Positions 1-30,639 of a DNA stretch of 64,000 nucleotides are shown piece by piece. This DNA comes from Massilia sp. CF038 (GTDB lineage Bacteria; Pseudomonadota; Gammaproteobacteria; Burkholderiales; Burkholderiaceae_D), in assembly GCF_900129765.1 (NCBI RefSeq), contig NZ_FQWU01000002.1:1302001-1366000 (forward strand), written 5' to 3'. Each line of letters begins with the position of its first letter. Position 1 is the first letter of the stretch. The notes beneath the pieces are model-generated. The model made no database searches. It saw only the letters and a program-made list of their open reading frames with translations, and was not told the DNA's origin. Made by a program: the position numbers and the translations under genes.

Positions 1-303
1 CTCAGGTAGAATGGCGCTCAGATGGCGGGTGCGGCGGTCCAGCAAGCCCTCGGACTGGGGCGGCGCCAGATGCACCACCCGGTGCGCCAGCGCAGCCAGG
101 CGCGCCAGCGTCTGTGGCTGGTCCAGGTCGGCCACGATCGGAATGGCCCCCGCCGCGCGCAACAGCGCACAGCGCGCCGGGTTGCTGGTGACGGCAAACA
201 CGCGAAAGCGCGCGCGCACCAGCGGCAGCAAGCGCATGCCGACATCACCGCAACCGAGAATCAGCAGGCGCGGACGCTTGCTCTTGTTATTGATTTGTTT
301 CAT
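1..303 (-). CDS. NAD(P)-binding epimerase/dehydratase-like protein, N-terminal part (truncated by window edge)
   Basis: The minus-strand frame opens with ATG at 303-301 and runs off the left edge, giving about 101 residues. The N terminus carries a Rossmann nucleotide-binding motif (LLILGCGDVGMRLLP) after a short basic leader, then alternating beta/alpha segments (FRVFAVTSNPARCALLRAAG) as in atypical SDR proteins of the YeeZ type. The family contains NAD(P)-dependent sugar epimerase-like proteins whose substrates are mostly unknown. Its start codon lies only 9 bases from the start of the divergent AscD-like reductase, so the two genes must share or overlap promoter and leader sequences. The C-terminal catalytic region is outside the window, so the exact activity cannot be judged. 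Confidence 0.75.
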   Translation of the reverse strand, partial: MKQINNKSKRPRLLILGCGDVGMRLLPLVRARFRVFAVTSNPARCALLRAAGAIPIVADLDQPQTLARLAALAHRVVHLAPPQSEGLLDRRTRHLSAILPE

Positions 304-312
304 AAGGATAGT

Positions 313-1338: not shown

Positions 1339-1738
1339 GCGTCCGCTCCCGGGCGCACAGCGCCCGCCTTCACAACGTGCCACATCTGCACCCCAGGTCG
1401 CAGAACACATCTCTGCCCAAAACTAACCGGGGTCAGACCTCAATACTGCAATTTTTTGGTGCCATAGCCGCAGCTTTGTTTGTGGTTTGTGGCCCGGACG
1501 CATCCGTCCTGCGACATCTGGTCCCGCAGGATACGAAAAGTATTGCAGAAACGAAGTTTGGGGCCATGTTGCAGTAATGAGGTCTGACCCCGATTGGGGA
1601 CATACGCCGATACAGCAACATGTTGGTGTCTTCAGGTCGGGTTGTGTGGCGTTTTGTGGCCAGCGCGCACCGGTTCTTCGACGCCAGGTGATGCAGGCGA
1701 CGAAAATCTTGCAAAAATGAGGTCTGACCCCGGTGGGG
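1339..1738. other. Intergenic region with hairpin and REP-like repeats
   Basis: About 400 bases with no convincing gene. A perfect hairpin (GGGCGC ACA GCGCCC, 1351-1365) follows the reductase stop but has no T run. The rest holds three copies of a GGTCTGACCCC-type repeat, listed separately. Short open frames exist in all directions but look like repeat sequence rather than protein. Confidence 0.6.
1428..1731. repeat. REP-like GGGGTCAGACC repeat cluster (one inverted and two direct copies)
   Basis: A 23-base unit at 1428-1450 (CGGGGTCAGACCTCAATACTGCA) shortened here to its core GGGGTCAGACCTCA recurs inverted at 1569-1591 with a single mismatch, forming a long inverted repeat around about 120 bases. 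A third copy with core TGAGGTCTGACCCCG lies at about 1717-1731 in the same orientation as the second. ACGAAAA plus a TTGCA-containing stretch precedes copies two and three. Arrangement and core resemble repetitive extragenic palindromes, which in other bacteria are mobilised by REP-associated tyrosine transposases; no transposase gene is present here. Confidence 0.6.
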
Positions 1739-2368
1739 TTAGCGGCGTTTGACGGTGCTGGCGTCGAACTGGTCGCTGTTCTTGCCGGTGATGCCGGCGT
1801 AGAACTGCTGGATTTCGGCCATGTCGGCAGCGATGTCGCCAGTGGGCATGAACATGCGGCCGATGCCGCCGGTCTTGTGCTTGAAGTCGAGGTAGGCCAG
1901 CGCGATCGGCACACCGGCCCCATGCGCCATGTGGTAAAACCCGGTCTTCCAGTGCGTGACTTTGCCGCGCGTGCCTTCGGGCGCCACGATGATGGCCAGC
2001 CGCTCACGCGCGCTGAAGGCGGCAATCGTGTTCTGCACGGTATTGTTGGAGGCGCTGCGGTCAATCGCGATGCCGCCCAGCCAGCGCGAGAGCCAGCCAA
2101 TCGGCCAGGTAAACAGGCTGGCCTTGGCCATCCAGTACACGCGCAAACGCAGCACGAAGCACAGCATGAGTGTGATCGGGAAATCCCAGTTGCTGGTGTG
2201 GGGAGCGGCAATCAGCACGAATTTTGGGTGCTGTTCAATTTCGTCCGGCGTCATGCCTTCGGTGCGCCAGCCGCTGGCACGCATGGCCAGCCCGGACAGC
2301 GCGCGCATCACGCGATTGACGATGGGTGTTTCAAATATGGTGTGGTGCATGGCGGAGCGGCCCGGCAT
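1739..2368 (-). CDS. Lysophospholipid/1-acylglycerol-3-phosphate acyltransferase family protein
   Basis: A PlsC-like acyltransferase of about 209 residues. The catalytic HX4D motif is HTSNWD, and the second conserved block is PEGTRGK, which binds the phosphate of the acyl acceptor. The family transfers acyl groups from acyl-ACP or acyl-CoA to lysophospholipids at the inner face of the cytoplasmic membrane; hydrophobic segments around FPITLMLCFVL fit peripheral membrane attachment. Start is uncertain: ATG at 2368 is used here, ATG at 2350 (MHHTIFETP) is an equally good alternative, and neither has a clear ribosome-binding site. The gene stands alone, with the repeat cluster downstream and a divergent MFS gene upstream. 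The specific acceptor cannot be told from sequence. Confidence 0.85.
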   Translation of the reverse strand: MPGRSAMHHTIFETPIVNRVMRALSGLAMRASGWRTEGMTPDEIEQHPKFVLIAAPHTSNWDFPITLMLCFVLRLRVYWMAKASLFTWPIGWLSRWLGGIAIDRSASNNTVQNTIAAFSARERLAIIVAPEGTRGKVTHWKTGFYHMAHGAGVPIALAYLDFKHKTGGIGRMFMPTGDIAADMAEIQQFYAGITGKNSDQFDASTVKRR

Positions 2369-2468
2369 GCCCACGCCCGGCAGGCGGACGCAACATCGGG
2401 CACAATAGCGGGTTGGTTCTCTAAAGCATCATTTTACCCCAGCGGCATCCCTGCCCCGAAAGTTCTTT

Positions 2469-3722
2469 ATGTCCCTGATGTCGCCGTCCAACGGTGCGAG
2501 CGTGCTGCGCCACCGCAATTTCACGTTTTACCTGGGGGCGCGCCTGCTCGGCACGCTGGCGGTGCAGATGCAAAGCGTGGCCATCGGCTGGCAGGTGTAC
2601 CAGATGACGGGCAGCCTGTTTGACCTGGGCCTGATCGGGCTGGCGCAATTTGCGCCCTTCCTGGTGCTGATCCTGCTGGCCGGCCACGTGGCGGACCGCT
2701 TTAACCGGCGCAATATCATCATTGCCTGCCTGGCAACCCAACTGGTGTGCGGGCTGCTCCTGCTGTGGTTCACCCATGCGGGGCTGTCGCAGGTGTGGCC
2801 GGTGTTCGCGATCCTGGTCCTGTTCGGCAGTGCGCGTGCCTTCATGATGCCAGCGACCCAGGCTGTGCTGCGCAATCTGGTGCCGACGGAAAGCTTCGGC
2901 GCCGCGGTCGCCCTCAGTTCTTCCGCCTTCCATGTGGCCGTGATTGCCGGCCCTGTTATCGGTGGCCTGCTGTATCTGGCCGGCCCGTCCACGGTGTATC
3001 TGGTGGCCACGGCTCTGCTGGTGCTGTCGGTGCTGCTGATGGCGCGCACGCGCGCCGCGCCGCAGGTGATCAGCACGGAACCGGCCACCTGGCACACGGT
3101 GCTCGAAGGCTTGCGTTTCGTGTGGTCGCGTCCCATCATGCTGGGCGCTATTTCGCTGGATTTGTTCGCGGTCCTGTTTGGCGGCGCCACTGCCTTACTG
3201 CCTGCTTATGCGCACGACGTGCTGCAGGTGGGCCCGACCGCGCTGGGCCTGCTGCGCACCGCGCCCGGTGCCGGCGCCGCCTTGTGCTCGGTACTACTGA
3301 CCTTCTATCCGATCCAGCGCCGGGTCGGCGCGTGGATGTTTGGCGGGGTCGGCCTGTTCGGCCTGGCCACGGTGGTACTGGGGCTGACCGACAACTTGAT
3401 CATCGCCCTGCTCGCCTTGCTGGTGCTGGGCGCGGGCGACATGGTCAGTGTGTATGTGCGCCATCTGCTGGTGCAGTTCGAGACCCCCGATGAAATCCGC
3501 GGCCGCGTCAGCGCGGTCAATGCCGTCTTCATCGGCGCCTCGAATGAACTGGGGGAATTCGAATCAGGACTGACAGCTGGCTGGCTGGGACTGGTGCGCG
3601 CGATTCTGTTTGGCGGTGTGGCCACGCTGGCGGTCACGGTGCTGTGGATGGTGCGCTTTCCGGTGCTCTCGCGCATGGACCGCTTCCCCCATCACGAGAA
3701 GGAATTGGCGGCGCAAACATAG
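2469..3722 (+). CDS. MFS transporter, EntS-like drug/siderophore exporter family
   Basis: A 417-residue integral membrane protein with about 12 hydrophobic segments. The loop after the second helix reads GHVADRFNRRNII, the MFS signature between TM2 and TM3, and a matching basic loop follows later. The N terminus (VLRHRNFTFYLGARLLGTLAVQ) and the DEIRGRVSAVNAVFIGASNELGEFESG block are typical of the EntS/MFS_3 branch, which exports enterobactin or drugs by proton antiport. No siderophore genes adjoin it, so the substrate is unknown. It diverges from the acyltransferase gene. A second ATG at 2478 could also serve as start; ribosome-binding sites are weak for both. Confidence 0.88.
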   Translation: MSLMSPSNGASVLRHRNFTFYLGARLLGTLAVQMQSVAIGWQVYQMTGSLFDLGLIGLAQFAPFLVLILLAGHVADRFNRRNIIIACLATQLVCGLLLLWFTHAGLSQVWPVFAILVLFGSARAFMMPATQAVLRNLVPTESFGAAVALSSSAFHVAVIAGPVIGGLLYLAGPSTVYLVATALLVLSVLLMARTRAAPQVISTEPATWHTVLEGLRFVWSRPIMLGAISLDLFAVLFGGATALLPAYAHDVLQVGPTALGLLRTAPGAGAALCSVLLTFYPIQRRVGAWMFGGVGLFGLATVVLGLTDNLIIALLALLVLGAGDMVSVYVRHLLVQFETPDEIRGRVSAVNAVFIGASNELGEFESGLTAGWLGLVRAILFGGVATLAVTVLWMVRFPVLSRMDRFPHHEKELAAQT

Positions 3723-6874: not shown

Positions 6875-8323
6875 ATGACCACCCATACTTTCCTTTGGCA
6901 TGACTATGAAACCTTTGGCGCCCAGCCGCGCCGCGACCGACCGGCCCAGTTTGCCGCCATTCGCACCGATGCCGAATTGAATGAAATTGGGACGCCGATC
7001 ATGCTGTATTGCCAGCCAGCGCCGGACTTTCTGCCCGACCCGGTGTCCTGCCTGATCACCGGAATTACCCCGCAGCAATGCCTGGAATGGGGCGTGCCGG
7101 AACATCAGTTTGCCGCCACCGTGGAAGCCGCCTTCAGCGAACCGGGCACGATCGGGGTGGGCTACAACACCATCCGTTTCGACGATGAGGTCACGCGCTT
7201 TCTGTTCTGGCGCAATCTGATCGATCCGTATGCACGCGAGTGGCAGCACAATTGTGGCCGCTGGGATTTACTGGACGTGGTGCGCATGACCTACGCCTTG
7301 CGTCCGGAAGGCATTGAATGGCCGCTGCGGGACGATGGCAAGCCCAGTTTCAAGCTGGAACACTTGGCGCGGGCCAACGGCCTGGTGCACGAAGCAGCGC
7401 ACGACGCGCTGTCGGACGTGCGCGCCACCATCGCGCTGGCGCGCCTGATCCGCCAGCGCCAGCCCAAGCTGTTCGATTTCTGTCTGGCCCTGCACAAGAA
7501 GGACAAGGTTTCCGCCGAAATCGGCATGCACCTGGCGCTGCCGCAGCGCCAGCCCTTCCTGCACGTGAGCGGCATGTTCCCTGCCGAGCTCGGCTGCATC
7601 GGCCTGGTGTATCCGCTCGGTACCCATCCGACCAACAAGAATGAAGTGCTGGTCTGGGATTGCCGCTACGATCCGGCCGAACTGTTCGGGCTCGATGCCG
7701 ACACCATCCGCCTGCGCATGTTCAGCAAGAGCGCCGATCTGCCGGAGGGCGTGACACGTTTGCCCATCAAGAGCATCCATCTGAACAAATCGCCGATGCT
7801 GGTGTCGAACCTGAAGACGCTGACGCCAGCCATGGCCCAGCGTTGGGATCTGGACCTTGAGCTAGGCCGTGTGCATGCACAGGCGGTCGCGGCGGGGCCA
7901 GACATGGGCGCCATGTGGGAGCAGGTTTACCAGCGTCCTGCAGCTGCTGGCGACACCGATGTGGACGAAGATTTGTACGGCGGCTTTATCAGCAAGGACG
8001 ACAAGCGCAAGCTTGAAACACTGCGCGCAGACAAGCCCGAAAGGCTGGCTGCGGCGCGGCCGTCGTTTGATGACGAACGGTTGGGCGAACTGTTCTTCCG
8101 CTACCGCGCGCGCAATTTCCCGCACACGCTCAGCGTGGACGAGGCCGCCCACTGGGAGCAGCACCGCGCCGCACGCCTGTTCGATGGCGAGGCAGGCGCG
8201 CGCACGATCGAGCAATTGTTCGCAGAAATTGATACCTTGTCGGAAGAAGCAGATGAACGCGCCGAACAGATCCTTGGCGCGCTGTATGACTACGCCGAAA
8301 TGATCGCGCCCTCACGCCGCTGA
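6875..8323 (+). CDS. sbcB: Exodeoxyribonuclease I
   Basis: A 482-residue 3'-5' single-strand DNA exonuclease, the usual length for SbcB. The DEDDh exonuclease core is complete: DYETFG (Asp10, Glu12), a YNTIRFDDE block, and HDALSDVRATI for the terminal His/Asp pair. ExoI-specific SH3-like and C-terminal helical regions follow (LGELFFRYRARNFPHTLS). The enzyme degrades ssDNA and works in mismatch repair and recombination. ATG at 6875 (MTTHTFLWHDYETFG) was chosen because family members begin a few residues before the catalytic motif; an in-frame start at 6836 adds unrelated residues. The gene is monocistronic. Confidence 0.95.
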   Translation: MTTHTFLWHDYETFGAQPRRDRPAQFAAIRTDAELNEIGTPIMLYCQPAPDFLPDPVSCLITGITPQQCLEWGVPEHQFAATVEAAFSEPGTIGVGYNTIRFDDEVTRFLFWRNLIDPYAREWQHNCGRWDLLDVVRMTYALRPEGIEWPLRDDGKPSFKLEHLARANGLVHEAAHDALSDVRATIALARLIRQRQPKLFDFCLALHKKDKVSAEIGMHLALPQRQPFLHVSGMFPAELGCIGLVYPLGTHPTNKNEVLVWDCRYDPAELFGLDADTIRLRMFSKSADLPEGVTRLPIKSIHLNKSPMLVSNLKTLTPAMAQRWDLDLELGRVHAQAVAAGPDMGAMWEQVYQRPAAAGDTDVDEDLYGGFISKDDKRKLETLRADKPERLAAARPSFDDERLGELFFRYRARNFPHTLSVDEAAHWEQHRAARLFDGEAGARTIEQLFAEIDTLSEEADERAEQILGALYDYAEMIAPSRR

Positions 8324-8347
8324 GGCCGCAGCGTCCGGCAGGCGCGC

Positions 8348-9166
8348 TTAGCGATACAGATTGATCGCGTCGCGCGTTTCCAGGGCCACCCGGCGGGCGG
8401 CGTCGGCAAAATCCTCGCCTGCAACTGGCTCGGCATACAAAATGGCGCGCGAAGAATTGATCATCAAGCCGCCGCCGCTGGCTGTTTTACCGGCCCGCAC
8501 CGTTGCTGCCACATCGCCACCCTGGGCACCGACGCCCGGCACCAGCAAGGGCATCTCGCCGACCAGCGCGCGCACTTGTGCCAGTTCTTCCGGGAAGGTG
8601 GCGCCCACCACCAGGGCGCACTGGCCATTCTGGTTCCATTTGTTGCCCACCAGGCTAGCGACGTGCTGATACAGCGGTTTGCCGTCAACATTTAAAAACT
8701 GCAGATCGGAGCCGCCCGCGTTGGAGGTACGGCACAGCACGATCACGCCGCGCTCACGCCATTCCATGTAAGGCTCGACTGAATCAAAGCCCATGTACGG
8801 ATTGACAGTGACCGCGTCGGCACCGTAGCGGTCAAAGGCTTCGCGCGCGTACTGCTTGGCGGTGGCACCGATATCGCCGCGCTTGGCGTCCAGAATCAGC
8901 GGCAGATGGGGATAGTTGGCACGCAGGTAAGCGCACACTTGCTCGAGCTGGCGCTCGGCGCCCAGGGCCGCAAAATAGGCAATTTGCGGCTTGAAGGCGC
9001 AAGCCAGATCGGCCGTGGCATCAATGATCGCCTTGCAGAAGGTGAAAATACCGTCCGGCTCATTTTGCAGCGCGGCCGGGAGACGGGCCACGTCGGGGTC
9101 CAGGCCCACGCACAACATCGATTGATTGGTGGTCCATGCAGCGGACAATTGTTGGATGAAAGTCAT
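8348..9166 (-). CDS. pyrF: Orotidine 5'-phosphate decarboxylase, type 2
   Basis: A 272-residue TIM-barrel enzyme making UMP from OMP in pyrimidine synthesis. The catalytic motif is [16 protein letters not shown] (Asp-x-Lys-x-x-Asp arrangement), with the N-terminal CVGLDPD motif and C-terminal phosphate-binding [10 protein letters not shown]. Length and motif spacing fit the longer type 2 family of proteobacteria and mycobacteria rather than the about 230-residue E. coli type. ATG at 9166 (MTFIQQL) gives the normal N terminus; longer in-frame starts would extend into the region upstream of the divergent lemA gene. No other pyrimidine gene is adjacent. Confidence 0.95.
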
Positions 9167-18706: not shown

Positions 18707-20491
18707 CTAGGATCCGGCTGGTTTTTCCTCCGTGGTGCCGGCCCGGGTGGCCGCATTGATCATCTCCAGCGCCACCTTGGGGGTGCGGTCAGCGCACAGC
18801 AAACCGTTGGCCTCCTGGAAGGTGTCACTGAACTGGGTGTAGCAAAAGCCGCTGAACATGGTCGTCGTGTTGACCACCTCCAGCAGGCGCCGATACAAAT
18901 CGATAAAGCTGTCCTCGGTATGCGCGCGCGAATAACCCCAGGTTTTCAGTTCCTGCGCGGCATCCTTGTCGAAGGCAATGCCGCCGAACTCGGTCAGGAC
19001 GATCGGCTGCCCCCGGTGCGGGAAACCATCGAGCGTGAGAATGCGCCCGCCCGGGCGGCGTTGATCAAACAGGGTTCGGGTTGGCTCCGTGGTGGTATAC
19101 CGCGCCGCCAGTTTGTCGGGATTGCAGTCGTAGTCGTGGATGCCCAGGATATCGGTGGCCGATGCTTCCCAGCCATCGTTGCCAATGACGGGACGGGTGG
19201 CATCGAGCGTGCGCGTCAGGTGATACAGCGCCTCGACCGCGTTGCGATGGGCCTGGGTCAGGGTCAGATTCGGCACACCCCACGATTCGTTGAACGCGAC
19301 CCAGACAATGATGCAGGGGTGGCTGTAGTCGCGCTCAATGGCCTCGGTCCATTCACGCACCATGCGCGTGATGGCCTTGGGGCTGAAGCGGTAAGCCGAG
19401 GGCATTTCCTCCCATACAAGCAAGCCCAGCCGATCGGCCCAGTACAGGTAGCGGGGATCCTCGATTTTCTGGTGCTTGCGCACGCCGTTAAAGCCCATGG
19501 CCTTGGCCAGCTCGACATCACGCTTGAGGGCGGCATCGGAAGGCGCCGTCAACAGCGAACCGGGCCAGTAGCCCTGATCAAGCACCAGCCGCAGCGCGTA
19601 CGCGCGGCCGTTGAGCATGAAGCGGTCACGGTTGATGGCCACGGAACGCAAGGCCGTGTACGACACGATGCGATCGAGCACGACGCCCTTATGGTGCAAG
19701 GTGACTTCCGCATCGAGCAAGGTCGGCCGCTCAGGACTCCAGAGCAATTCGTTGCGCGAATCATCGATCCCGGGATCGGACAAGGCAATCTTGCGGTTCG
19801 CTTCGTGGCCGAGCAGCTTGTAATGGTCATCGGCCAGCAGATTGTCGCCATGCCAGATCTTGACTTCGACGAACAGATCCTCGTTGACATCGCCGGTGGC
19901 GAAAATTTCGCAGCCAATTTCGTAGGTTTCGAAGATCGGCGTCCAGCGCAGGGTCTGAATATAGGTGGACGCCACCTGCTCGAGCCACACACTCTGCCAG
20001 ATGCCCGTGGTGCGCGGATACCAGATTGAATGCGGTTCCAGCAGCCAGTCCTGCTTGCCGCGCGGCTTGGCCAGATCGTGCGGATCGTCCTCCACATACA
20101 CGGTCACCACTTGCTTGCCGTCTGCACGCAGTGCAGTGCTGATATTGCACGAAAATGGCGTATGGCCACCTTCGTGCTCGGCCACCAGGTGCCCGTTGAC
20201 CCAGACCCGGGCGCGATAGTCGACTGCCCCGAAATGCAGGATCGTGTGACCGTTGTGCGGGCCGATCTCGAACTCGCGTTCGTACCAGCATACCCAGTGA
20301 AACCCGGTGTCGCCGATCCCGCTCGCTGTTGCCTCGGGCGCAAACGGCACCTCGATCGTGTGCGTCCATTCGATCGGGCCGTCCGGAATTTTGTAGGTGC
20401 GCTCGTCGTCGTAGCGGAACTTCCAGGGGCCGTTCAGGCTCATCCAATGTTCGCGCACCAACTGCGGGCGCGGGTACTCGAAATCACTCAT
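18707..20491 (-). CDS. Glycoside hydrolase family 2 (beta-galactosidase/beta-glucuronidase type)
   Basis: A 594-residue GH2 enzyme with the three expected modules: jelly-roll sugar-binding domain (SLNGPWKFRYDDE, FHWVCWYEREF, VWVNGHLVAEHEGGHTPF), an immunoglobulin-like domain, and the TIM barrel from about residue 300. Acid/base Glu is in WVAFNESWG, and the nucleophile Glu in VLTEFGG. No signal peptide is present, so it acts in the cytoplasm on small glycosides that have been imported. It starts inside the galK stop (4-base overlap) and is followed after 68 bases by the fusion gene. Beta-galactosidase activity would feed galactose to GalK, but beta-glucuronidase or beta-mannosidase activity cannot be excluded. 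Confidence 0.88.
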   Translation of the reverse strand: MSDFEYPRPQLVREHWMSLNGPWKFRYDDERTYKIPDGPIEWTHTIEVPFAPEATASGIGDTGFHWVCWYEREFEIGPHNGHTILHFGAVDYRARVWVNGHLVAEHEGGHTPFSCNISTALRADGKQVVTVYVEDDPHDLAKPRGKQDWLLEPHSIWYPRTTGIWQSVWLEQVASTYIQTLRWTPIFETYEIGCEIFATGDVNEDLFVEVKIWHGDNLLADDHYKLLGHEANRKIALSDPGIDDSRNELLWSPERPTLLDAEVTLHHKGVVLDRIVSYTALRSVAINRDRFMLNGRAYALRLVLDQGYWPGSLLTAPSDAALKRDVELAKAMGFNGVRKHQKIEDPRYLYWADRLGLLVWEEMPSAYRFSPKAITRMVREWTEAIERDYSHPCIIVWVAFNESWGVPNLTLTQAHRNAVEALYHLTRTLDATRPVIGNDGWEASATDILGIHDYDCNPDKLAARYTTTEPTRTLFDQRRPGGRILTLDGFPHRGQPIVLTEFGGIAFDKDAAQELKTWGYSRAHTEDSFIDLYRRLLEVVNTTTMFSGFCYTQFSDTFQEANGLLCADRTPKVALEMINAATRAGTTEEKPAGS

Positions 20492-21576
20492 CTGTCATCC
20501 TCTCTGTCGGTCGGAACGGGGATCAGCAGGCTGCCTTGCATGCCGCCGTCGTTGAAGCGAGCCAGTGCAGCCCGGCCGGCGCCGGCTGCCATGCCACGCC
20601 GGCACAGCGCCACACAGGCGCCGCCAAAGCCGGCACCGGTCAGGCGCGCGCCGTACACACCTGGCTGCGCGCGCAACATCTCGCTCAGAAAATCAAGGGC
20701 CGGGATCGAGACGGCATAATCGTCGCGCAGGCTGGCGTGCGAATCATTCATGAGCTGGCCAAATCGCACAGCATCGATCCCAGCCAGCGCTTCCAGGACG
20801 CGCTGGTTTTCATGCACCACGTGGCGCGCGCGTTCGCGCAGTGGCGGGGGCAATGCCTGCACACTGGCCGGATCGGCCACGTCGCGCAGGCTGGCCACGC
20901 CGAGCTGGCGCGCGGCGGCGTCGCACTCGCTGCGCCGTTCGTTGTATTTGCTGCCCGCCAGCGTGCGCGGCACGCCGGAATCGATCACGATCAATTCGCT
21001 CTCAGGCGGCAGTGGCGTCAGCCGGTGCGCCAGCGTACGCGCATCGATGAACAGCATGTGCGTGCTGTCCGCCAGACTCGCCGCCATCTGGTCCATGATG
21101 CCGCAATGGACTTTGGCGTAATGGATCTCGGCCCGCTGCGCCATGCGCGCCAGGGCCACGTCGTCGAAAGGCAAGCCAAGCAAGATCCGCAAGGCACGCA
21201 GCATGGCGATTTCAAGCGCAGCGCTGGACGACAGGCCGGCGCCCACCGGCAGGCTGGTGCTCACGTGCACGCGCAGTGGCGGCACGGTGATGCCTTCCTG
21301 CTCCACCATGCGGATGCAGCCTTCGAGATAGCGGCCAAAGCCGGGCGGCGCGCTACTGTCGCGGGCAAAGCGCACACTGCTGTCGAGGGTGGACGAATAC
21401 AGCGTGAAGAAGCCGTCGGCACTGCTTGCCAGCGCCACCTCGGTGCGTTGCGGTGTGGCCACCGGCAGCATGAAGCCGTCGTTATAGTCGGTATGCTCGC
21501 CCAGCAGATTGACCCGGCCGGGGGCGGAGGCGTGCGCCTCGGGCGCGCCGCCAAAGAAGGCTGCGGCGCTCAGCAT
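20488..21576 (-). CDS. galK: Galactokinase
   Basis: A 362-residue GHMP kinase that phosphorylates galactose at C1 (Leloir pathway). All three signatures are present: GRVNLLGEHTDYNDGFMLP near the N terminus (galactokinase signature), the ATP-binding PVGAGLSSSAALEIA, and the C-terminal GARLTGAGFGGACVAL. The ATG at 21576 (MLSAAAFFGG) puts the galactokinase signature about 20 residues in, as usual; the frame is open further but overlaps galT. It follows galT by 22 bases and overlaps the GH2 start. Neither galE nor galM is present in the window. Confidence 0.94.
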   Translation of the reverse strand: MLSAAAFFGGAPEAHASAPGRVNLLGEHTDYNDGFMLPVATPQRTEVALASSADGFFTLYSSTLDSSVRFARDSSAPPGFGRYLEGCIRMVEQEGITVPPLRVHVSTSLPVGAGLSSSAALEIAMLRALRILLGLPFDDVALARMAQRAEIHYAKVHCGIMDQMAASLADSTHMLFIDARTLAHRLTPLPPESELIVIDSGVPRTLAGSKYNERRSECDAAARQLGVASLRDVADPASVQALPPPLRERARHVVHENQRVLEALAGIDAVRFGQLMNDSHASLRDDYAVSIPALDFLSEMLRAQPGVYGARLTGAGFGGACVALCRRGMAAGAGRAALARFNDGGMQGSLLIPVPTDREDDR

Positions 21577-21598
21577 GGCCGCCCTTTTGTGTTCGGCC

Positions 21599-22690
21599 TC
21601 ATGGCGCCTCCGGATCGACCGCGACCTGCTGCAGCTGGGCAGCGCTGGCTTCGGGCAACACATCCATGGCAAAGAAGCCCGCGCCCAGTTCGGTGCCGGC
21701 AAGATACTTGAGGCGGTCGCGATTGCGGTAAGGCGGAAAGAACTGGGCATGCAGCTGGGTTGCCGGATGGGCGGCGCCGTCGGTGGGCGCCTGATACCAG
21801 GCCATCAGGTAGGGGAAAGGCCGGTCCCATAAATGTTCGTACTTGAGCAGGACGGTTTTGAGGGCGCGGGCCAGATCGGCGCGCTGCGGCGCGCTCAGGT
21901 CGGCAAATCCGGCGACCGGCACCCGCGGCATGACCCACACCTCGTACGGGTAGCGCGCGCAAGGCGGGACGAAGGCCATGGCGTGTGGGCCTGCATAGAC
22001 GACCCGGGCGCCGCTGGCTGCTTCGTCGCGCGCCAGGTCGCACAGCAGGTTGCTGCCATGCTCAGCGTGGTATGTACGTTCTTGCGCCAGCATGCGGGCC
22101 GGCACCGGGGGCACCACCGGATAGGCGTAGATTTGCCCGTGCGGATGATGCAGCGTCACCCCAACTTCCACACCGCGGTTTTCAAACGGCAGTACATAGG
22201 CGATGTCGGCCTGAGCGGCAAGGCGGGTGGTACGGTCGCCCCACACTTGCAGCAGCAAATCGATCCGGGCCAGCGGCAGAGTGCCCAGAGAAGACAGCGC
22301 GTCTTGCGTGAACACCACCACTTCGCAGTGGCCCTTGGCCGGCATGGTGGGCACCGTCAGTGCCGGTGCGTCGCTCGCGTCCGGCGCCAGCGAGGGAAAG
22401 CGGTTGTCGAAGACCGCAATCTCGTAATCGCCTGCCGGCATTTCGGTCGGATGGGCAGGGTCGCGCATGGGCGCGAGGGGATTGTATTCGGGCGGCGGTT
22501 GATAGGTGCGGTGTTGCCGATAGGCCGCGTAGGTGACCCATTCGCCGCGCAGAGGATGCCAGCGCAAATGCGGATTGGCCAGCTGCGGCTGCGGAAACGG
22601 ACTGGGCGCGGACAGCCCGGCCGCAATGGGCGCGCTGCTGTACAGGGTCATGCTGCGCCCATCGGGTTTGGTCAGATCGAGACTGTGCAT
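21599..22690 (-). CDS. galT: Galactose-1-phosphate uridylyltransferase
   Basis: A 363-residue enzyme exchanging UMP between UDP-glucose and galactose 1-phosphate. The active-site HPH motif is in LHHPHGQIYAYP, and the N-terminal RWHPLRGEWVTYAAYRQHRT, in part LRGEWVTYAAYRQHRT, and C-terminal HAQFFPPYRNRDRLKYLAG, in part QFFPPYRNRDRLKYL, are conserved in GalT. It is the first gene of the minus-strand gal operon (galT, galK, GH2, fusion). The ribosome-binding site is weak; a second ATG 13 codons later is possible. Spacing to galK is 22 bases, so a single transcript is likely. Confidence 0.94.
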   Translation of the reverse strand: MHSLDLTKPDGRSMTLYSSAPIAAGLSAPSPFPQPQLANPHLRWHPLRGEWVTYAAYRQHRTYQPPPEYNPLAPMRDPAHPTEMPAGDYEIAVFDNRFPSLAPDASDAPALTVPTMPAKGHCEVVVFTQDALSSLGTLPLARIDLLLQVWGDRTTRLAAQADIAYVLPFENRGVEVGVTLHHPHGQIYAYPVVPPVPARMLAQERTYHAEHGSNLLCDLARDEAASGARVVYAGPHAMAFVPPCARYPYEVWVMPRVPVAGFADLSAPQRADLARALKTVLLKYEHLWDRPFPYLMAWYQAPTDGAAHPATQLHAQFFPPYRNRDRLKYLAGTELGAGFFAMDVLPEASAAQLQQVAVDPEAP

Positions 22691-24621: not shown

Positions 24622-25935
24622 ATGAGGGAACTTGTATGCATCAGCCACGATGACACCTGGGCTGCGCGGCTGCCCACCTGGGACGTGCAGCTGGTATCCG
24701 GCCTGGCCGAGGCGGCGCGCCTGCTGCGCGCCACCCCTTGCCTGACCGGATTGATCGACCTGCCCGCAAGCGAAGGCGAGGCCGGTTTGCGCGCGCTTGA
24801 CCGTTTCCTGCGCCTGCACTGGCGCACCCACTGGATCGCGCTGGCGCCGCCCAGCGTGGCATGCATGCCCGACTGGGCTGATATCGTGCTCGACCACTTG
24901 TTCGATTTCCACACCACACCAGCCGATCCCCTGCGCCTGGCCCATGCGCTGGGCCACGCGCACGGCGTGGCGCTGCTGCGCAGCCAGAGCCTGGCAGGCA
25001 CTGCGCCGCCGATGGGTTTGGCAGGCAACAGCGCGGCCATTACGCGCCTGCGCGCGCAAATCCGCAAGGTTGCCCGGGCCGAAGCACCGGTCCTGATCTG
25101 GGGCGAAAGCGGCAGCGGCAAAGAGCTGGCGGCGCAGGCCATTCATGCGGCGTCCATGCGGGCGCGCGGTCCCTTCGTGCCGATCAATTGCGGCGCGATA
25201 CCGCCCGCCCTGATCCAGTCGGAACTGTTCGGCCATGCACGCGGCGCCTTCACCGGCGCGGCGCGCGACAAGGCCGGGCTGATCGAGTCGGCGGCGGGTG
25301 GCAGCATCTTCCTTGACGAAATTGCCGACCTGCCCAAAGAACTGCAATCGAACCTGCTGCGCTTTTTACAGGAGAAAACCATTTACCGGGTTGGCGCCAC
25401 GCGCAGCATCACCGTCGACGTGCGTGTGATCGCCGCCTCGCATGTGGACTTGCAGCAAGCCGTCGCCCTCGGTCAGTTTCGCGAGGACTTGTATTACCGC
25501 CTCAATGTGCTGCCCCTGACCGTGCCAGCGCTGCGCGAACGGCGCGACGACCTGGCCATTCTGGCTGAACAATTCTTCCGCGCCTACGCGGCGGAAAAAT
25601 CGCCCCGCCTCAAAGGTTTCAGCTCGGCTGCGCTGCGCGCCCTGCGGGCCCATGCCTGGCCTGGCAATGTACGCGAACTGATCAACCGGGTGCGGCGCGC
25701 ACTGGTGCTGGCCGAGGGCCGTCTGATCGCACCGCAGGACCTGGGCCTGGCCCCTGCCCATGCCGCTGCGCACGATGGCGCGGCGCTGGGCGTCTCACGC
25801 ATCGAAGCCGAGCGCGCTGCCATTCTGGCCAGCCTGCAACGCTGGGACGGCAATGTGACACGTGCTGCGCGCGAACTGGCCATCTCGCGCATGACCCTGT
25901 ACCGCCAGATGGCCAAGCACGGCATTGCCACCTGA
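24622..25935 (+). CDS. Sigma-54-dependent activator (bEBP), VpsR-like, of the fibre operon
   Basis: A 437-residue NtrC-type enhancer-binding protein. Residues 1-125 are receiver-like but lack an obvious phosphorylatable Asp context, as in VpsR-type regulators. The AAA+ domain (about 132-365) has Walker A GESGSGKE (161-168), the sigma-54-contacting GAFTGA loop (208-213) and Walker B SIFLDEI (228-234). A Fis-type helix-turn-helix ends the protein (398-433, NVTRAARELAISRMTLYRQM). The intact GAFTGA shows it can open sigma-54 promoters. A textbook -24/-12 promoter lies 200 bases after its stop, in front of the fibre-protein gene, so this regulator most likely controls that operon. Its input signal is unknown; c-di-GMP is a candidate by analogy with VpsR/FleQ. 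Confidence 0.92.
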   Translation: MRELVCISHDDTWAARLPTWDVQLVSGLAEAARLLRATPCLTGLIDLPASEGEAGLRALDRFLRLHWRTHWIALAPPSVACMPDWADIVLDHLFDFHTTPADPLRLAHALGHAHGVALLRSQSLAGTAPPMGLAGNSAAITRLRAQIRKVARAEAPVLIWGESGSGKELAAQAIHAASMRARGPFVPINCGAIPPALIQSELFGHARGAFTGAARDKAGLIESAAGGSIFLDEIADLPKELQSNLLRFLQEKTIYRVGATRSITVDVRVIAASHVDLQQAVALGQFREDLYYRLNVLPLTVPALRERRDDLAILAEQFFRAYAAEKSPRLKGFSSAALRALRAHAWPGNVRELINRVRRALVLAEGRLIAPQDLGLAPAHAAAHDGAALGVSRIEAERAAILASLQRWDGNVTRAARELAISRMTLYRQMAKHGIAT

Positions 25936-25944
25936 ATACGGCAG

Positions 25945-26036
25945 CTGTCACGCCCATGTGCCACTTTGCCCTGTGGCGAGAAACGCCCGGCGCAGCAGCA
26001 GAACGCACCGCCAGCGCCGTCTCCGGAATGTGACAG
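25945..26036. promoter_or_regulatory. Inverted CTGTCAC / GTGACAG pair, candidate enhancer sites
   Basis: CTGTCAC (25945-25951) and its exact reverse complement GTGACAG (26030-26036) flank 78 bases upstream of the sigma-54 promoter, at about -200 and -115 relative to the -24 element. Position is right for bEBP upstream activating sites, but each half-site is short. Confidence 0.35.
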
Positions 26037-26143
26037 TTCAAGACGAATTCACTGGGGCCGTTGCCATGCGCAACCGGGCCGATACCAGGGCGGCGCGTGA
26101 AACAGCCTTTGAATTCAAGTGCTTAGCGCAGCCGCAGCAAACG

Positions 26144-26159
26144 TGGCACCGCTTTTGCA
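26144..26159 (+). promoter_or_regulatory. Sigma-54 (-24/-12) promoter of the fibre operon
   Basis: TGGCACC GCTT TTGCA is a match to the sigma-54 consensus TGGCAYR N4 TTGCW with one deviation, at the R position of the -24 element. Transcription would begin about 26171, roughly 58 bases before the ATG at 26229, with AAGGGGC as ribosome-binding site. Confidence 0.85.
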
Positions 26160-26228
26160 CAGACAGGTAGACCTGACCCGGCAAGCCAGGCTTATTTCAA
26201 CGACATTTCGAAAACAAAAGGGGCACAC

Positions 26229-27644
26229 ATGAAACAAACTATCTTGGCCACAGCAATCACGCTGGCATTCAGCACCGCCGCGCTGGCAGCAGACCCGACC
26301 AACAACGCAAGCAATCCCTCGGGCAGCAGCGGCGGTGCGCTGACCCAGACTGCCAGCAATACCACCACCCAGGGCGGCGACGCGCCCCAGGCTAGCGACA
26401 ACGCAAGCGCGACCCAGACCACGAGTACCGATACCGGCAACGACAAGAGTACTGGACAAAACAATAGCCTGGGCGACGCGCTCGGTGCCGGCCTGAACGC
26501 GGCGGCGGCCAACAATGCTTCCACCTCCACGTCGACCATGAGCAATTCATTCAACAATTCCACCGCCACCGCCAGCAGCGCACTGACGGGCACTGTCACG
26601 GGGAACACGATCAACAACATCGGCAACCTGGCCAACCATACCGGTAACGCCAGCGGCGGCGCTGCCACGGGCGGCAATGGGGCAGCCGGTGTCGGCGGGC
26701 TGGCAGCTGGCGCCGGCGGCGCAGGTGCAGCGGCCACCGGCGCCAATGGCGGCGCTGGCGCCGCTGGCGCCAATGGCAACAACGGCAGCGCCACCAATGG
26801 CACTGTTCTGGCCACAGGCAGTGTCGGTGGTGCCGGCGGCGCCGGCGGTGTCGGCGGGGCCGGCGGCCTGGCACTGGGCGGCAATGGCGGCGACGGCGGC
26901 CTGGCGCTGGGCGGCAATGGTGGCAGTGGCGGCAATGCTGCCAGTGGCGCTGGCGGCGCGGGCGGCAGCGGGGGCGACGGCGGCCTGGGCCTTGGATCCG
27001 TGGCCAGTTCAACGAGTGACGGCACCGGTGGCGCCAGCACCTCGGGCACGCCGGGCGGCGCCACGGGCACCGATCCGGGCACCAGCACCAGCACAGCTGG
27101 CGCCGGCACCGGTGGCGCTTCCACCACCACGGCAGGCGACACCACCGTTGGCCCGGCCGGCACCGGCGGCAATGGCGCCAACAGCGGCGACAGCACCGGC
27201 GGTGCCGGCGGCGCCGGCGCAACAGCGAGCACGGCCGGTGGTGCCGGCGCGGCAGCCACGGTGGGCGACGGCGGTGCCGGCGGCGCAGGTGCAGCTGGCG
27301 GCAGCGGCACCGGTGGCACTGCCAGCAACGGCTCGCCAACGGTGGGCAGTGCCACGGGCGGTGCTGGTGGCGCAGGCGGTACTGCCGGCACCAATACGGG
27401 CGGCGCCGGCGGCGATGGCGGTACCAACACGGGCGGCGCCGGCACCGGCGGCGCGGGCGCTTCCGCCACGGGCGGCAATGGCGGCACCACCACGGTCACC
27501 GCGGGCACCTTCGACATGTCGAACACGATGAGCAACGTCGGCCAGTCCGCCGCCGGCATCATGGCCGTGACGCAAAACAATGGCTTCTCATCGCTGATTC
27601 AGCAAAGCGTCAATGTACAGTCGAACCTGACGGTCGGCCCGTAA
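26229..27644 (+). CDS. Secreted Gly/Ala-rich repeat protein, candidate fibre (amyloid-like) subunit
   Basis: A 471-residue exported protein. Residues 1-20 are a signal peptide (MKQTILATAITLAFSTAALA). Residues about 21-135 are rich in Asn, Ser, Thr and Gln; about 136-425 are Gly/Ala repeats of GGNGG, GGAGG and TGGAGGAG type with interspersed Asn and Thr; and the last 45 residues are non-repetitive (MSNTMSNVGQSAAGIMAV region, then NNGFSSLIQQSVNVQSNL). The Gln/Asn-rich end resembles tails of proteins encoded beside C39 peptidases and the Gln/Asn spacing of curlin-like repeats. It is first in the sigma-54-driven operon with a peptidase and an outer-membrane channel, so it is the likely main cargo. 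It has no detectable similarity to FapC beyond composition. Confidence 0.7.
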   Translation: MKQTILATAITLAFSTAALAADPTNNASNPSGSSGGALTQTASNTTTQGGDAPQASDNASATQTTSTDTGNDKSTGQNNSLGDALGAGLNAAAANNASTSTSTMSNSFNNSTATASSALTGTVTGNTINNIGNLANHTGNASGGAATGGNGAAGVGGLAAGAGGAGAAATGANGGAGAAGANGNNGSATNGTVLATGSVGGAGGAGGVGGAGGLALGGNGGDGGLALGGNGGSGGNAASGAGGAGGSGGDGGLGLGSVASSTSDGTGGASTSGTPGGATGTDPGTSTSTAGAGTGGASTTTAGDTTVGPAGTGGNGANSGDSTGGAGGAGATASTAGGAGAAATVGDGGAGGAGAAGGSGTGGTASNGSPTVGSATGGAGGAGGTAGTNTGGAGGDGGTNTGGAGTGGAGASATGGNGGTTTVTAGTFDMSNTMSNVGQSAAGIMAVTQNNGFSSLIQQSVNVQSNLTVGP

Positions 27645-27698
27645 TTCCCCATGGCCGGCGTCGCTTCGATGCCGGCCTTGTTCCCCTCCGGAGATTGT

Positions 27699-28022
27699 AT
27701 GAATCCATCGAGTTCGATTTCCTGCGCCGCCTTGCTGGTCCTGCTCGGCGCCCCGCCAGCCGCCCTGGCGCAGCCGGCGCTGGGCCCGGCGGTGCCGAGC
27801 GCCATGCTGGCGCATACCCGCGGTGGCAGCGCCGACCTGCACGCAAGCAGTTCGCTCACGGCCGCAGTCAACAACAATTCGGCAAACCAGGTGGTCACCG
27901 GCGCAAATACAGTGCAAGGTGGCGCGTTTCGTGGCGCAGCTGGTATCCCTGTCGTGATCCAGAACACCGGCGCCAATGTGTCGATTCAGAACGCGACCGT
28001 GGTCCAGTTGCAGCTTCGATGA
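27699..28022 (+). CDS. Small secreted protein with RGG motif and IQN-type C terminus
   Basis: A 107-residue exported protein. A signal peptide (about 1-24, ending AALAQ) is followed by a short pro-region ending MLAHTRGG (RGG at 41-43). The remainder is Asn/Val-rich: SLTAAVNNNSANQVVTG, GGAFRGAAGIP and PVVIQNTGANVSIQNATVVQ. The repeated VIQN/SIQN units suggest stacked beta-strands, as in amyloid nucleators or minor subunits. TCCGGAGA precedes the ATG, and the stop overlaps the peptidase start (ATGA), so the two are translationally coupled. RGG could be the cleavage site for the adjacent C39-type peptidase; that is inference from the double-glycine preference of the family. Confidence 0.68.
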   Translation: MNPSSSISCAALLVLLGAPPAALAQPALGPAVPSAMLAHTRGGSADLHASSSLTAAVNNNSANQVVTGANTVQGGAFRGAAGIPVVIQNTGANVSIQNATVVQLQLR

Positions 28023-28699
28023 AGCGCTCTTTTGTACTCTGGCTGAGCATGGCAATGGTCGTGGCGACGCCGCCCGTGGCAGCGCTTGACATGGCCATTG
28101 GCGGGGCGCGCTTTGACGTCCCGGCGTCCAGCCTCAAGGAGATGCGTTTTCGCACCACCATGCGTCAGCAATACGATTTCAGCTGCGGTTCGGCTGCAGT
28201 CGCGACCTTGCTCACGTATCACTACGGCCAGCGCTTCACCGAGCAGCAAGTGTTTGAGCAAATGTATGCGCGCGGCGACCAGGCCAGAATTCGCAGAGAG
28301 GGCTTTTCCCTGCTCGACATGCAAGCCTTTCTGGCCGCGCACGGTTACCGCGCCGACGGTTTTCAGTTGCCTCTTGAAAAGCTGAGCGAGGCGGGCTTGC
28401 CGGCCATCGTACTGCTGTCCGACAAGGGCTACCAGCATTTCGTGGTTGTCAAAGGCATCGCTGGCGATCGCGTGCTGCTGGGTGATCCTGCGCGCGGCAC
28501 CCGTGCCCTGACACGCGCGGCGTTTCATGCGGCCTGGGTCGGCAAGCTGCTGTTTGTGATTCATGGCGACACCCATGCGGGCAGCTTCAATGCCAGCGCA
28601 GAATGGCGCACTGCGCCAGCGGCGCCGTTGGCCGCCGTGTTTGCCCGCGATGGGCTGGGTGCGGCCACCATGGCAAAACTCGGCCCCGGCGATTTTTGA
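28019..28699 (+). CDS. Periplasmic C39-type cysteine peptidase (FapD-like)
   Basis: A 226-residue papain-fold peptidase with its own signal peptide (about 1-23) and no ABC-transporter domains, unlike bacteriocin exporters. The triad is intact: Cys56 in QQYDFSCGSAAVATLL, His140 in GYQHFVVVKGI and Asp156 in LLGDPARGT. Stand-alone exported C39 proteins of this form occur in Fap functional-amyloid operons (FapD), where they are needed for fibre secretion. It overlaps the preceding RGG-protein gene by 4 bases and is followed after 11 bases by a second RGG protein. Probable role: trimming the leader or pro-segments of the small secreted partners in the periplasm. Confidence 0.85.
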   Translation: MKRSFVLWLSMAMVVATPPVAALDMAIGGARFDVPASSLKEMRFRTTMRQQYDFSCGSAAVATLLTYHYGQRFTEQQVFEQMYARGDQARIRREGFSLLDMQAFLAAHGYRADGFQLPLEKLSEAGLPAIVLLSDKGYQHFVVVKGIAGDRVLLGDPARGTRALTRAAFHAAWVGKLLFVIHGDTHAGSFNASAEWRTAPAAPLAAVFARDGLGAATMAKLGPGDF

Positions 28700-28710
28700 A
28701 AGGAAACGAT

Positions 28711-29211
28711 ATGTACACAGCGCATGTTGAACGGCAGCGCGGCGCCCTCGCCCTGTTGCTGTGCGCCGTGCTCAGCCCGGCACTGGCCGCGCCACCAGGC
28801 TGGATCCCGGTAACCCAAGCGGTGCTGTCTGGGCAGCGCGGCGGCTTTGTCAGCACCAGTGGCCTTGAAGTGGCGCTGGGCATTGAACGCCTGGTGGCCA
28901 TCAATGGCGTCACGGTCACCCACACCACGGTGCAGATCCCTGACATCACGCGGCTCAGTGTCGAGCAGGCAAGGCAAACCCGCGCAGCTCTGTCCGAGGT
29001 CAACTTGGTTCAGAACGGCAGTGGGAATATCTACCTCGCTGCCATGTCGGACGCGGCGCTCGCCGGCACCGTGATTCAAAACACCCTGAACGATCAGCGT
29101 ATCGACAGCCGCACAACCATCAGCGCGTCCGTCAACAGCATGGACATGCTGAACACACTACACTTTAACGGCAACCTCAGCGACGCGATCGCGCGCGCGG
29201 CAGGCCCGTAA
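28711..29211 (+). CDS. Secreted RGGF/GIER-motif protein
   Basis: A 166-residue exported protein. The signal peptide ends near residue 27 (LSPALAAPPG), a short pro-region follows, and QAVLSGQRGGFVS places RGG at 43-45, almost the same position as in the 27699 product. Next come GLEVALGIERLVAINGVTV and TTVQIPDI, a motif set I have seen in uncharacterised proteins encoded next to C39 peptidases. The C-terminal half (NLVQNGSGNIYLAAM, AGTVIQNTLNDQRIDSRTTI) again has Asn/Gln-rich strands. AAGGAA precedes the ATG by 8 bases. It may correspond in role to FapE or FapA; sequence alone does not settle this. Confidence 0.68.
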   Translation: MYTAHVERQRGALALLLCAVLSPALAAPPGWIPVTQAVLSGQRGGFVSTSGLEVALGIERLVAINGVTVTHTTVQIPDITRLSVEQARQTRAALSEVNLVQNGSGNIYLAAMSDAALAGTVIQNTLNDQRIDSRTTISASVNSMDMLNTLHFNGNLSDAIARAAGP

Positions 29212-29226
29212 CGACAGGAGCTTTGC

Positions 29227-30639
29227 ATGCATGGACACCCTTTGCGCCTGGGCGGCGCAGGCGTCACCGCGCTGCTGATTGCGCCGTTCGCATTTGCCCA
29301 GCAGGATGTTCGGGCTGAACTGGCACGCGTGCAGCAACAGCTGACCGAGCAACGTCTTCTGATTGACCAGCTGGCGCGCGAACTGGCCGCGCGTCAGGAC
29401 CTGGCAGCGCCCACCGTGCTCTCCCCCGATCAGCTGGCACAGCAACGTGGCACTGGCGGACAGAGCGTCACGGCCACCGCGAATAGCATGCCGTCAGGTG
29501 CGCCCGGCCAGCCGTCGGGCTCATCTGCAGCCCCTGCCGGATCAGCGTCGAAACCAGCGAACGCGTCCGACACGGCATCGGCCCCGCCCCTGCCGCCGCC
29601 TTCATCTTCACCGCCGCCAGCGGCACCGGCGCCATCATCCAGCCAGGCAAGCGTGGGCCGCGCGCCGCAGCGCGACCCGCGCCCGCCTGCTGTCGCCCCG
29701 CTGTTCGAGCAGCCCGGCGTGCTCACGCCCAAGGGCAAGTATGTCCTGGAGCCGGCGCTGCAATACGGCTACTCGTCCAGCAATCGGGTCGCGCTGGTGG
29801 GCTATACCGTGATCCCTGCTTTGCTGATCGGCCTGGTTGACGTACGTGAAATCAAACGCAATACCGTTACAGCCGTGCTGAGCGGAAGAACCGGATTGAG
29901 CAACCGCCTCGAAATGGAAATCAAGCTGCCCTATGTGTACCGCTCCGACGCCACCGTCAGCCGCGAAATCTTCACTGGCACTGCGGTCGAAAACGTGTTC
30001 GATACCAGCGGCAAGCATATTGGCGACGCGGAAGCGGCCTTGCGCTACCAGCTCAATGATGGCGGCGTGGAACGCGCTTACTATGTGGCTTCGTTGCGCA
30101 TCAAATCGCGCACCGGGCGCGATCCGTTCGACGTGGTCACCGACTGCACCCGCCGCTGCATTGGTCCCAACGCCACCGGCACCGGCTTGCCGCTCGACTT
30201 GCCAACCGGGTCCGGATTTTACTCGGTGCAACCAGGCCTCACCTGGCTGTTCCCGTCTGATCCCGCGGTCTTCTTTGGCAGCGTCAGCTATCTGCACAAT
30301 TTCAAGCGCAGCCATGTCAGCCGGACCGTCCTCGGTGGCGAGCAAGAACTGCTGGGCGAAATCAAGCCAGGCGACATTGCCGGCTTCAATTTTGGTATGG
30401 GACTGGGTTTGAATGAAAAAGCGTCGCTCAGCCTTGGTTACGATCACAGTTCCATCGGACGTACCAGGCAAAACGGGCGCGTGGTGCCAGGCGCCGTGCG
30501 TACCCAGCTGGGTACCTTGCTGCTGGGATTTTCCTACCGGCTCAGCGAGCAGCGCAGTCTAAACGTGTCGGTCGGTGCCGGCCTCACGCGCGACACCCCC
30601 GACCTGTCACTGACGCTGCGCGTGCCGACCACGTTTTGA
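29227..30639 (+). CDS. Outer-membrane beta-barrel with N-terminal coiled coil (FapF-like secretion channel)
   Basis: A 470-residue exported protein. After the signal peptide (about 1-24) residues 27-58 form a heptad coiled coil (ELARVQQQLTEQRLLIDQLA), followed by a Pro/Ser/Ala linker to about 150 and then beta-strand-rich sequence to the C terminus (YVLEPALQYGYSSSNRV, LEMEIKLPYVYRSDAT, FGSVSYLHNF, LLLGFSYRLSEQRS, ending in LTLRVPTTF with terminal Phe typical of outer-membrane proteins). This order of coiled coil, linker and barrel is the architecture of FapF, the trimeric channel that exports Fap amyloid. CAGGAG lies before the ATG. It is the last gene of the operon. Confidence 0.78.
   Translation: MHGHPLRLGGAGVTALLIAPFAFAQQDVRAELARVQQQLTEQRLLIDQLARELAARQDLAAPTVLSPDQLAQQRGTGGQSVTATANSMPSGAPGQPSGSSAAPAGSASKPANASDTASAPPLPPPSSSPPPAAPAPSSSQASVGRAPQRDPRPPAVAPLFEQPGVLTPKGKYVLEPALQYGYSSSNRVALVGYTVIPALLIGLVDVREIKRNTVTAVLSGRTGLSNRLEMEIKLPYVYRSDATVSREIFTGTAVENVFDTSGKHIGDAEAALRYQLNDGGVERAYYVASLRIKSRTGRDPFDVVTDCTRRCIGPNATGTGLPLDLPTGSGFYSVQPGLTWLFPSDPAVFFGSVSYLHNFKRSHVSRTVLGGEQELLGEIKPGDIAGFNFGMGLGLNEKASLSLGYDHSSIGRTRQNGRVVPGAVRTQLGTLLLGFSYRLSEQRSLNVSVGAGLTRDTPDLSLTLRVPTTF

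Follow-up and report, generated by a model that had tools for sequence, protein, structure and literature searches.

A candidate third lineage of C39-peptidase-plus-barrel secretion operons with a leader motif in its probable substrates

Which proteins does a C39 peptidase act on when it is encoded as a stand-alone exported enzyme next to an outer-membrane barrel? This question is raised by six colinear genes at positions 24622-30639 of a 64,000-nucleotide stretch of DNA from Massilia sp. CF038, the whole of which is called the window below. According to the list of open reading frames (ORFs), all six lie on the + strand and encode, in this order, an activator, a glycine-rich protein, a small protein S2, the peptidase, a second small protein S4 and the barrel. 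The initial annotation had placed six colinear genes here, at or near the positions of these ORFs, and had read them as a locus resembling the Fap functional amyloid system. It had not noted the element that we consider central, a leader motif connecting the peptidase with its probable substrates. Judged by sequence comparison, S4, S2 and the linkers of full-length barrels share the leader grammar read by C39 peptidases, and the operon does not belong to Fap but to a third lineage of such C39-plus-barrel systems, next to Fap and Fil.

A shared leader motif in S4, S2 and the barrel linker

The C39 domains of PCAT1, LahT and ComA bind Leu at -12 and Leu at -7 of their substrates in a hydrophobic groove and cleave behind the Gly pair (PMC6959990, PMC6363468; these and the articles below are cited from excerpts of their text). 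The features of such double-glycine leader substrates, namely a hydrophobic residue at -12, Leu at -7 and Gly at -2 and -1, are all present in S4 and largely so in S2. In S4 (28711-29211), a predicted exported protein, a pattern scan locates the leader segment at residues 31-45 (28801-28845), with Trp(-15), Val(-12), Leu(-7) and Arg-Gly-Gly, then Phe. Leu-x3-Arg-Gly-Gly follows shortly after the signal peptide in 116/116 loci, a count that leaves out the S4-like ORFs of loci L173 and L179, which fall below threshold. Leu at -7 and Arg, Gly and Gly at -3, -2 and -1 are found in 100% of S4 proteins, Trp at -15 in 71% and Val at -12 in 79% (Val, Leu, Ala or Ile in 99%); the next residue is Phe in 94%.

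S2 (27699-28022), likewise a small predicted exported protein, is encoded with a 4-base overlap with the start of the peptidase gene. The pattern scan finds its leader segment, Val(-12), Leu(-7) and Arg-Gly-Gly, at residues 32-43 (27792-27827), and 98 of the 119 S2 proteins contain [LM]-x3-R-G-[GTAR]. Those that match have Leu at -7 in 98% and Gly at -1 in 96% of cases, and some that miss the strict pattern retain a similar form, for example LGRTSGK or LAALHAG. A leader-like motif is also seen in the barrel linker (29419-29457), where alignments and the pattern scan place Leu65(-12), Leu70(-7) and Arg74-Gly-Thr-Gly77. The leader pattern occurs in 95 of 131 barrels, with truncated ORFs among the misses and a few matches falling within the coiled coil, and the RGxG form in 89 of the 106 barrel ORFs of at least 420 residues. 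Arg74 and Gly77 are invariant in 20/20 sequences and conserved to at least 90% among 63.

Counted over distinct sequences, the pattern is present in 100/100 S4 (mean of shuffled sequences 7.6), 83/102 S2 (2.0) and 79/114 barrels (15.2), all collected with profiles that include the motif, so that very distant members lacking it may be missed. It stays at or below the shuffled background in the Gly-rich protein (4/97, mean 4.8), the peptidase (3/105, 9.5) and the activator (7/83, 12.4).

The peptidase and the channel

The peptidase (28019-28699, 226 residues) matches the C39 family at 7.7e-22 and is related to FapD and FilB, scoring 132 bits with the FapD model (cut-off 330) and 118 bits with the FilB model (cut-off 475). 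Its profile matches the PCAT-type C39 structure 6MPZ at 2.3e-9, and a family scan of the 226 residues returned C39-type domains only and no ABC transporter domains. Cys56, His140, Asp156 and Gln50 are invariant in 18/18 aligned relatives. A FapD-related, C39-type peptidase with an intact Cys-His-Asp triad, as had been claimed at first, is thus what the hidden Markov model (HMM) search and the alignment describe, with export predicted. Signal peptides of this protein, the Gly-rich protein, S2, S4 and the barrel were called by eye and with a simple script. An attempt to map the leader-binding groove of PCAT1 onto the window's C39 domain was dropped, the alignment being ambiguous by several residues.

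The last gene (29227-30639) encodes a predicted outer-membrane beta-barrel preceded by a coiled coil and a disordered linker. It scores 151 bits with the FapF equivalog model (cut-off 700) and 56 bits with FilC (cut-off 630). In an AlphaFold model (63 sequences, predicted local distance difference test score, pLDDT, 70.6) a helix spans residues 9-59, the linker is disordered and strands run from residue 172 on; a short helix at 67-73 lies immediately N-terminal to Arg74-Gly-Thr-Gly77. A Foldseek search of the PDB with this model returned FapF in all of the top 18 matches (E 1e-15 to 3e-13, TM-score by target 0.70-0.80), followed by COG4313, and the profile aligns with the FapF structure 5O67 at 3e-36. 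By our own reading of that alignment, one of the two PTG motifs is retained and RTG replaces the other. Profile and predicted fold thus agree with the FapF-like, coiled-coil-preceded barrel of the initial annotation.

Seven Duganella loci (L103, L107, L109, L123, L124, L143 and L148) have short barrels that lack both the coiled coil and the linker motif, while their S4 keeps the RGG leader. They offer a natural test of the linker's role.

A lineage beside Fap and Fil

In a C39 tree of 79 rows this lineage forms one side of a branch with support 91/92, the bootstrap not being fully settled, and a barrel tree from a quick search separates Fap, Fil and this lineage (Shimodaira-Hasegawa-like approximate likelihood-ratio test 95). 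Labels in the trees were assigned according to the score of the barrel and the layout of the locus; 40 rows of this lineage were chosen by hand, and L068 and L184 were not included. The earlier suggestion of a new class of exported surface fibre is fair in its first part, given these trees; the fibre itself is a conditional step of the mechanism discussed below.

Fap of Pseudomonas (fapABCDEF; its FapD and FapF models match wider families, PMC3792158) shares with the window operon an exported C39 peptidase, a channel of coiled coil and barrel, a leader protein encoded between the two and often a bacterial enhancer-binding protein (bEBP) nearby. It differs in having FapB/FapC repeats, whereas the window operon has the order Gly-rich protein, S2, C39, S4 and barrel behind the activator, and in its branches of both trees. 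Homologues of fapD and fapF are reported close together in five further phyla (review PMC6173800). The place of FapE, between FapD and FapF, is taken here by the leader-bearing S4. In 13/13 canonical Fap loci (L032, which comes from the family of the window, and L156-L167) the intervening protein likewise contains [LM]-x3-[R/T/H]-G-[R/K]-[F/Y]; it was chosen by position in 11/11 loci, and found by pattern in L157 and by reading the gap in L165. The residue before the presumed cut (P1) is thus Arg or Lys in FapE and Gly in S4.

FapD is periplasmic in Pseudomonas, and both the protein and its Cys38 are needed for export of FapC (PMC5557850). Its target was called unclear in 2017 in the same article, and its substrate "yet to be determined" in 2018 (PMC6173800). 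FapE was alone among the proteins in yielding no peptides from its first ~70 residues, and linker 60-100 of FapF was apparently processed with the coiled coil retained; GG/GA motifs led the authors to suspect FapE and FapF, but they did not see a canonical C39 sequence (PMC5557850). Since the leader grammar is common to S4, S2, the linker and FapE, cut sites can be nominated for FapD-type peptidases. The RG motif with its -12/-7 anchor is a specific alternative candidate in FapE, with a parallel in the linker of this lineage. If this is true, FapD would cut FapE after RG[R/K] and before Phe/Tyr.

Some Fap-type loci have additional components. L163 (2736-12266) contains two C39 genes and two FapB/FapC pairs, as well as an extra predicted exported ORF (8001-8444) that carries the leader motif SLEDGDLASIRGRF. 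In two Fap loci from another class, L162 (6912-7544) and L165 (5410-6006), an extra protein ~200 residues long and with a signal-peptide-like start is encoded between FapE and FapF.

Fil, a putative pilus system (FilA, FilB and FilC in NCBIfam), taken together with other short-barrel C39 loci that have DUF6160 proteins, also has an exported C39 peptidase beside a FapF-related barrel, and partners with the same leader grammar. It is set apart from the window operon by the weak FilB and FilC scores and by separate tree branches, and family scans found neither DUF6160 nor FilA among the six window proteins. For Fil-type loci the pattern was L/I/V/M(-12), L/M(-7), G(-2) and G/Q/R/K(-1), fixed after eight loci had been seen and then applied with 20 fresh ones. 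Over all 28 loci, which have short barrels, 113 signal-peptide-positive ORFs lie no farther than 2.5 kb from the C39 gene, and 35 of them carry the leader. The background amounts to 0/46 ORFs in the rest of the window and to 4/418 in the regions flanking the operons of the window's lineage, where S4 of a second gene set accounts for two of the matches. By hand count, 17 of the 20 fresh loci have at least one leader ORF, although one match each in L199 and L203 looks spurious. DUF6160 matched 4/4 of the leader proteins scanned, three of them above cut-off, and the FilA model matched 3/4, far below its cut-off. Clusters in L187, L193-L196, L201-L203 and L206 hold a series of different predicted exported leader proteins, DUF6160 and its relatives, beside one C39-barrel pair.

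PCAT, ComA and LahT share with the window operon the C39 fold family and the leader with hydrophobic -12, Leu -7 and Gly -2/-1. Here, in contrast, the peptidase is a stand-alone exported protein and the leader is placed after a signal peptide of the general secretory (Sec) pathway. Taken together, Fap, Fil and this lineage might be branches of a single envelope pathway. Its proteins, once exported by Sec, would still bear a further pro-leader of the double-glycine type for a C39 peptidase in the periplasm to read, with P1 being Gly here, Arg/Lys in FapE and mostly Gln in the DUF6160 proteins of Fil-type loci. The linker motif of this lineage would let the peptidase dock on or trim the channel and so couple processing to opening. 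We consider the chances of this wider proposal evenly balanced. If it is true, many unannotated exported proteins could be identified from the leader grammar alone. The three-lineage comparison yields residue-level candidate sites in FapE, S4, S2 and the channel linker, which are testable by one peptide assay.

A proposed mechanism and its alternatives

On the reading that we favor as probable, the operon is a secretion operon of a third periplasmic C39-plus-barrel lineage. A VpsR-type activator would switch on the sigma-54 promoter, whose element is observed, and the Gly-rich protein, S2, S4, peptidase and barrel would be exported by Sec, as their predicted signal peptides suggest. S4 and S2 would keep a pro-leader of ~19 residues after export. 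The peptidase would bind the hydrophobic -12 residue and Leu -7 of this observed grammar and cut after Arg-Gly-Gly. Arg-Gly-Thr/Ala-Gly in the barrel linker may be a second cut site or a dock that anchors the peptidase to the channel. If FapD, FapE and FapF are a guide, processed S4 and S2 could then prime the FapF-like channel for the passage of the unfolded Gly-rich protein, which would build a fibre or matrix at the surface.

Several observations weigh against this reading. The strict motif is lacking in 21/119 S2 proteins, and RGxG in 17/106 long barrel ORFs as well as, with the coiled coil, in the short Duganella barrels. Position -4 of S4 is not consistently hydrophobic, unlike in known leaders. 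Over the first 200 residues of canonical FapF the pattern scan came back empty in 11/13 loci, and by eye L162 alone has a clear motif, DLVTMRGRY. The predicted FapE cut at about residue 41 (L156 protein) falls short of the printed peptide gap to about residue 70. In Fil-type loci the leader is also present in 17/131 signal-peptide-positive ORFs farther from the C39 gene, which we read as outlying members of long clusters. Moreover, relatives do not give independent counts, and some genomes entered the sample twice. Finally, small P1 residues are the rule at known C39 sites, whereas P1 is mostly Thr/Ala in barrel linkers and Arg/Lys in FapE. The protein Ax21 was formerly taken for a double-glycine peptide. 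According to the title of a paper it is processed by the general secretory system, and leader-like motifs can therefore mislead.

The alternative that survives best concerns the product. The Gly-rich protein (26229-27644; 29% Gly, 19% Ala) is the putative main secreted subunit and appears, from the analogy with Fap, to reach the surface through the FapF-like channel; it might nevertheless be an adhesin, soluble or part of a matrix, and form no fibre, which we hold to be a real if lesser possibility. Its relatives begin with a signal peptide and a conserved stretch of N-terminal sequence, continue with a long region of Gly and Ala and end in a C-terminus that is strongly conserved. The low complexity of the body, its very variable length and the failed fold prediction (AlphaFold pLDDT 45.5, the fold not being predictable) would suit an adhesin, as would the Asn/Asp/Thr-rich bodies that stand in this position at more distant loci, several of them with a related C-terminus. 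On the other side, the conserved C-terminal segment (27504-27641) is common to S2, with an hhalign probability of 92.6% to the S2 C-terminus (reversed control 0.1%), and FapF-like channels export fibre subunits in Pseudomonas. A polyglycine-helix bundle was considered for the body, and at this pLDDT no claim is made for it.

Alternatively, the motif could be left uncut and act as a docking or targeting signal that binds S2, S4 and the channel to a peptidase that is a chaperone or cuts elsewhere. The P1 residues of linkers and FapE, unusual for C39 cleavage, speak for this, and some C39-like domains only tether their substrates (PMC5557850, PMC6959990, PMC6363468). We judge it improbable: the triad is intact throughout the aligned relatives, the Cys38 of FapD is required in Pseudomonas, and S4 keeps RGG without exception.

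In hhalign comparisons, with reversed and unrelated controls below 1%, S4 matches S2 at 97.2% and FapE at 62.3% over 37 columns on the leader region (reversed control 0.3%), while S2 reaches 50.4% with FapE and 27% with FapB. A FapB/FapC repeat model, which recovered 24/25 true Fap subunits in a leave-one-out control, found no Gly-rich protein among 111, even with E relaxed to 10, and none of 118 S2 at E 1e-3; at E up to 10 it gave weak matches in 79/118 S2 (best 0.0049) and 11/115 S4. As had been proposed initially, the putative subunit lacks FapC-type repeats. The equation of the Gly-rich protein with FapC was rejected on the basis of this model together with an hhalign probability of 1.7% between its C-terminus and FapB repeats, and that of S2 with FapB is suggestive only. 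The sequences point to shared pieces among the Gly-rich protein, S2 and S4, the first not being demonstrably FapC. The small proteins, FapA candidates among them, had no family match in scans of libraries that may or may not include a FapA model. With E allowed to reach 1, Pfam gave neither curlin repeats nor CsgG in any of the six proteins. That the locus is a divergent operon of Fap amyloid, with FapC drifted to a Gly-rich form, S2 as FapB and S4 as FapE, is therefore unlikely: the FapD and FapF homologues, the S4 and S2 similarities, the weak S2 matches and a related bEBP near 10/13 canonical Fap loci speak for it, but the repeat model, the separation in both trees and the two genomes that each carry both kinds (G275, G330) speak against it.

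Distribution and gene order

Genome contigs were scanned with the barrel alignment, and the best 80 of the 290 relatives found come chiefly from Massilia, Janthinobacterium, Duganella, Pseudoduganella and Rhodoferax, which are bacteria of soil and water. The gene set was counted in the 53 loci with at least 6.5 kb before the barrel, the other 27 being too short upstream. The complete set of six genes is present in 52/53, and by script the order of the window is kept on one strand in 46/53, a conserved gene order. This co-occurrence is far beyond chance. L135 counts as out of order solely on account of its second gene set, the barrel gene is divergent in five Rhodoferax loci, and in L088 the peptidase is truncated and S4 is missing.

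In a sample of the family, the FapF model matched at E <=1e-3 in 82/245 genomes, none above its cut-off; a hand count gave 54/245, the window's own genome included, with a barrel match between 100 and 200 bits, where the members of this system score. The surroundings of 20 + 20 places from this sample were examined. In a phylum sample the model matched in 42/398 genomes, by hand count 20 with at least 340 bits, the range of canonical Fap, and 15 with 120-180 bits. In 15/15 of the latter a C39 gene lies near a barrel of that range, and S2 and S4 profile matches are clear except in L173 and L179. The operon is thus widespread, and with a putative subunit that differs from known functional amyloids it could form a new surface fibre or matrix. 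Neither the operon nor its leader was recognised among the literature matches listed, whose coverage is poor for subscription journals and preprints.

Gene sets are also found in other arrangements. L135, L136 and L142 (about 220-3050) have a second C39/S2-S4-barrel set directly upstream of the full operon, at the start of the examined DNA. L172 (524-4970) carries S2-C39-S4 twice in tandem, the predicted proteins being the same, beside one barrel gene. L186, the second barrel that this lineage has in G018, showed no C39 gene within 16 kb.

Promoter, activator and neighbouring genes

Control by sigma-54, part of the initial annotation, is supported by a predicted -24/-12 element, TGGCACCGCTTTTGCA, at 26144-26159 on the + strand, 85 bp before the start codon of the Gly-rich gene. 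It fits 11/11 scored positions of the sigma-54 consensus, and its position is kept in relatives. Among the upstream regions of 100 related Gly-rich genes, which include some genomes twice and a few truncated or misplaced starts (e.g. L041, L072, L086, L108, L174), the best site reaches at least 10/11 in 71 and 11/11 in 26. The mean best score is 9.71 compared with 5.78 in shuffles, and the sites lie mostly 73-100 bp upstream.

The activator (24622-25935) is a bEBP, as annotated, with an AAA+ domain carrying GAFTGA (PF00158, 2.9e-68), a Fis-type helix-turn-helix (HTH_8) and a VpsR-type N-terminal domain (PF20161, 35 bits, cut-off 23.7), and it is present with the other genes in relatives. VpsR is a responder to cyclic di-GMP, and control of the operon by this messenger through the VpsR-type domain would be a guess. 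Elsewhere in the window, at 18707-22690 on the - strand, a putative galactose block of glycoside hydrolase, galactokinase and galactose-1-phosphate uridylyltransferase was recognised by eye from the ORF list.

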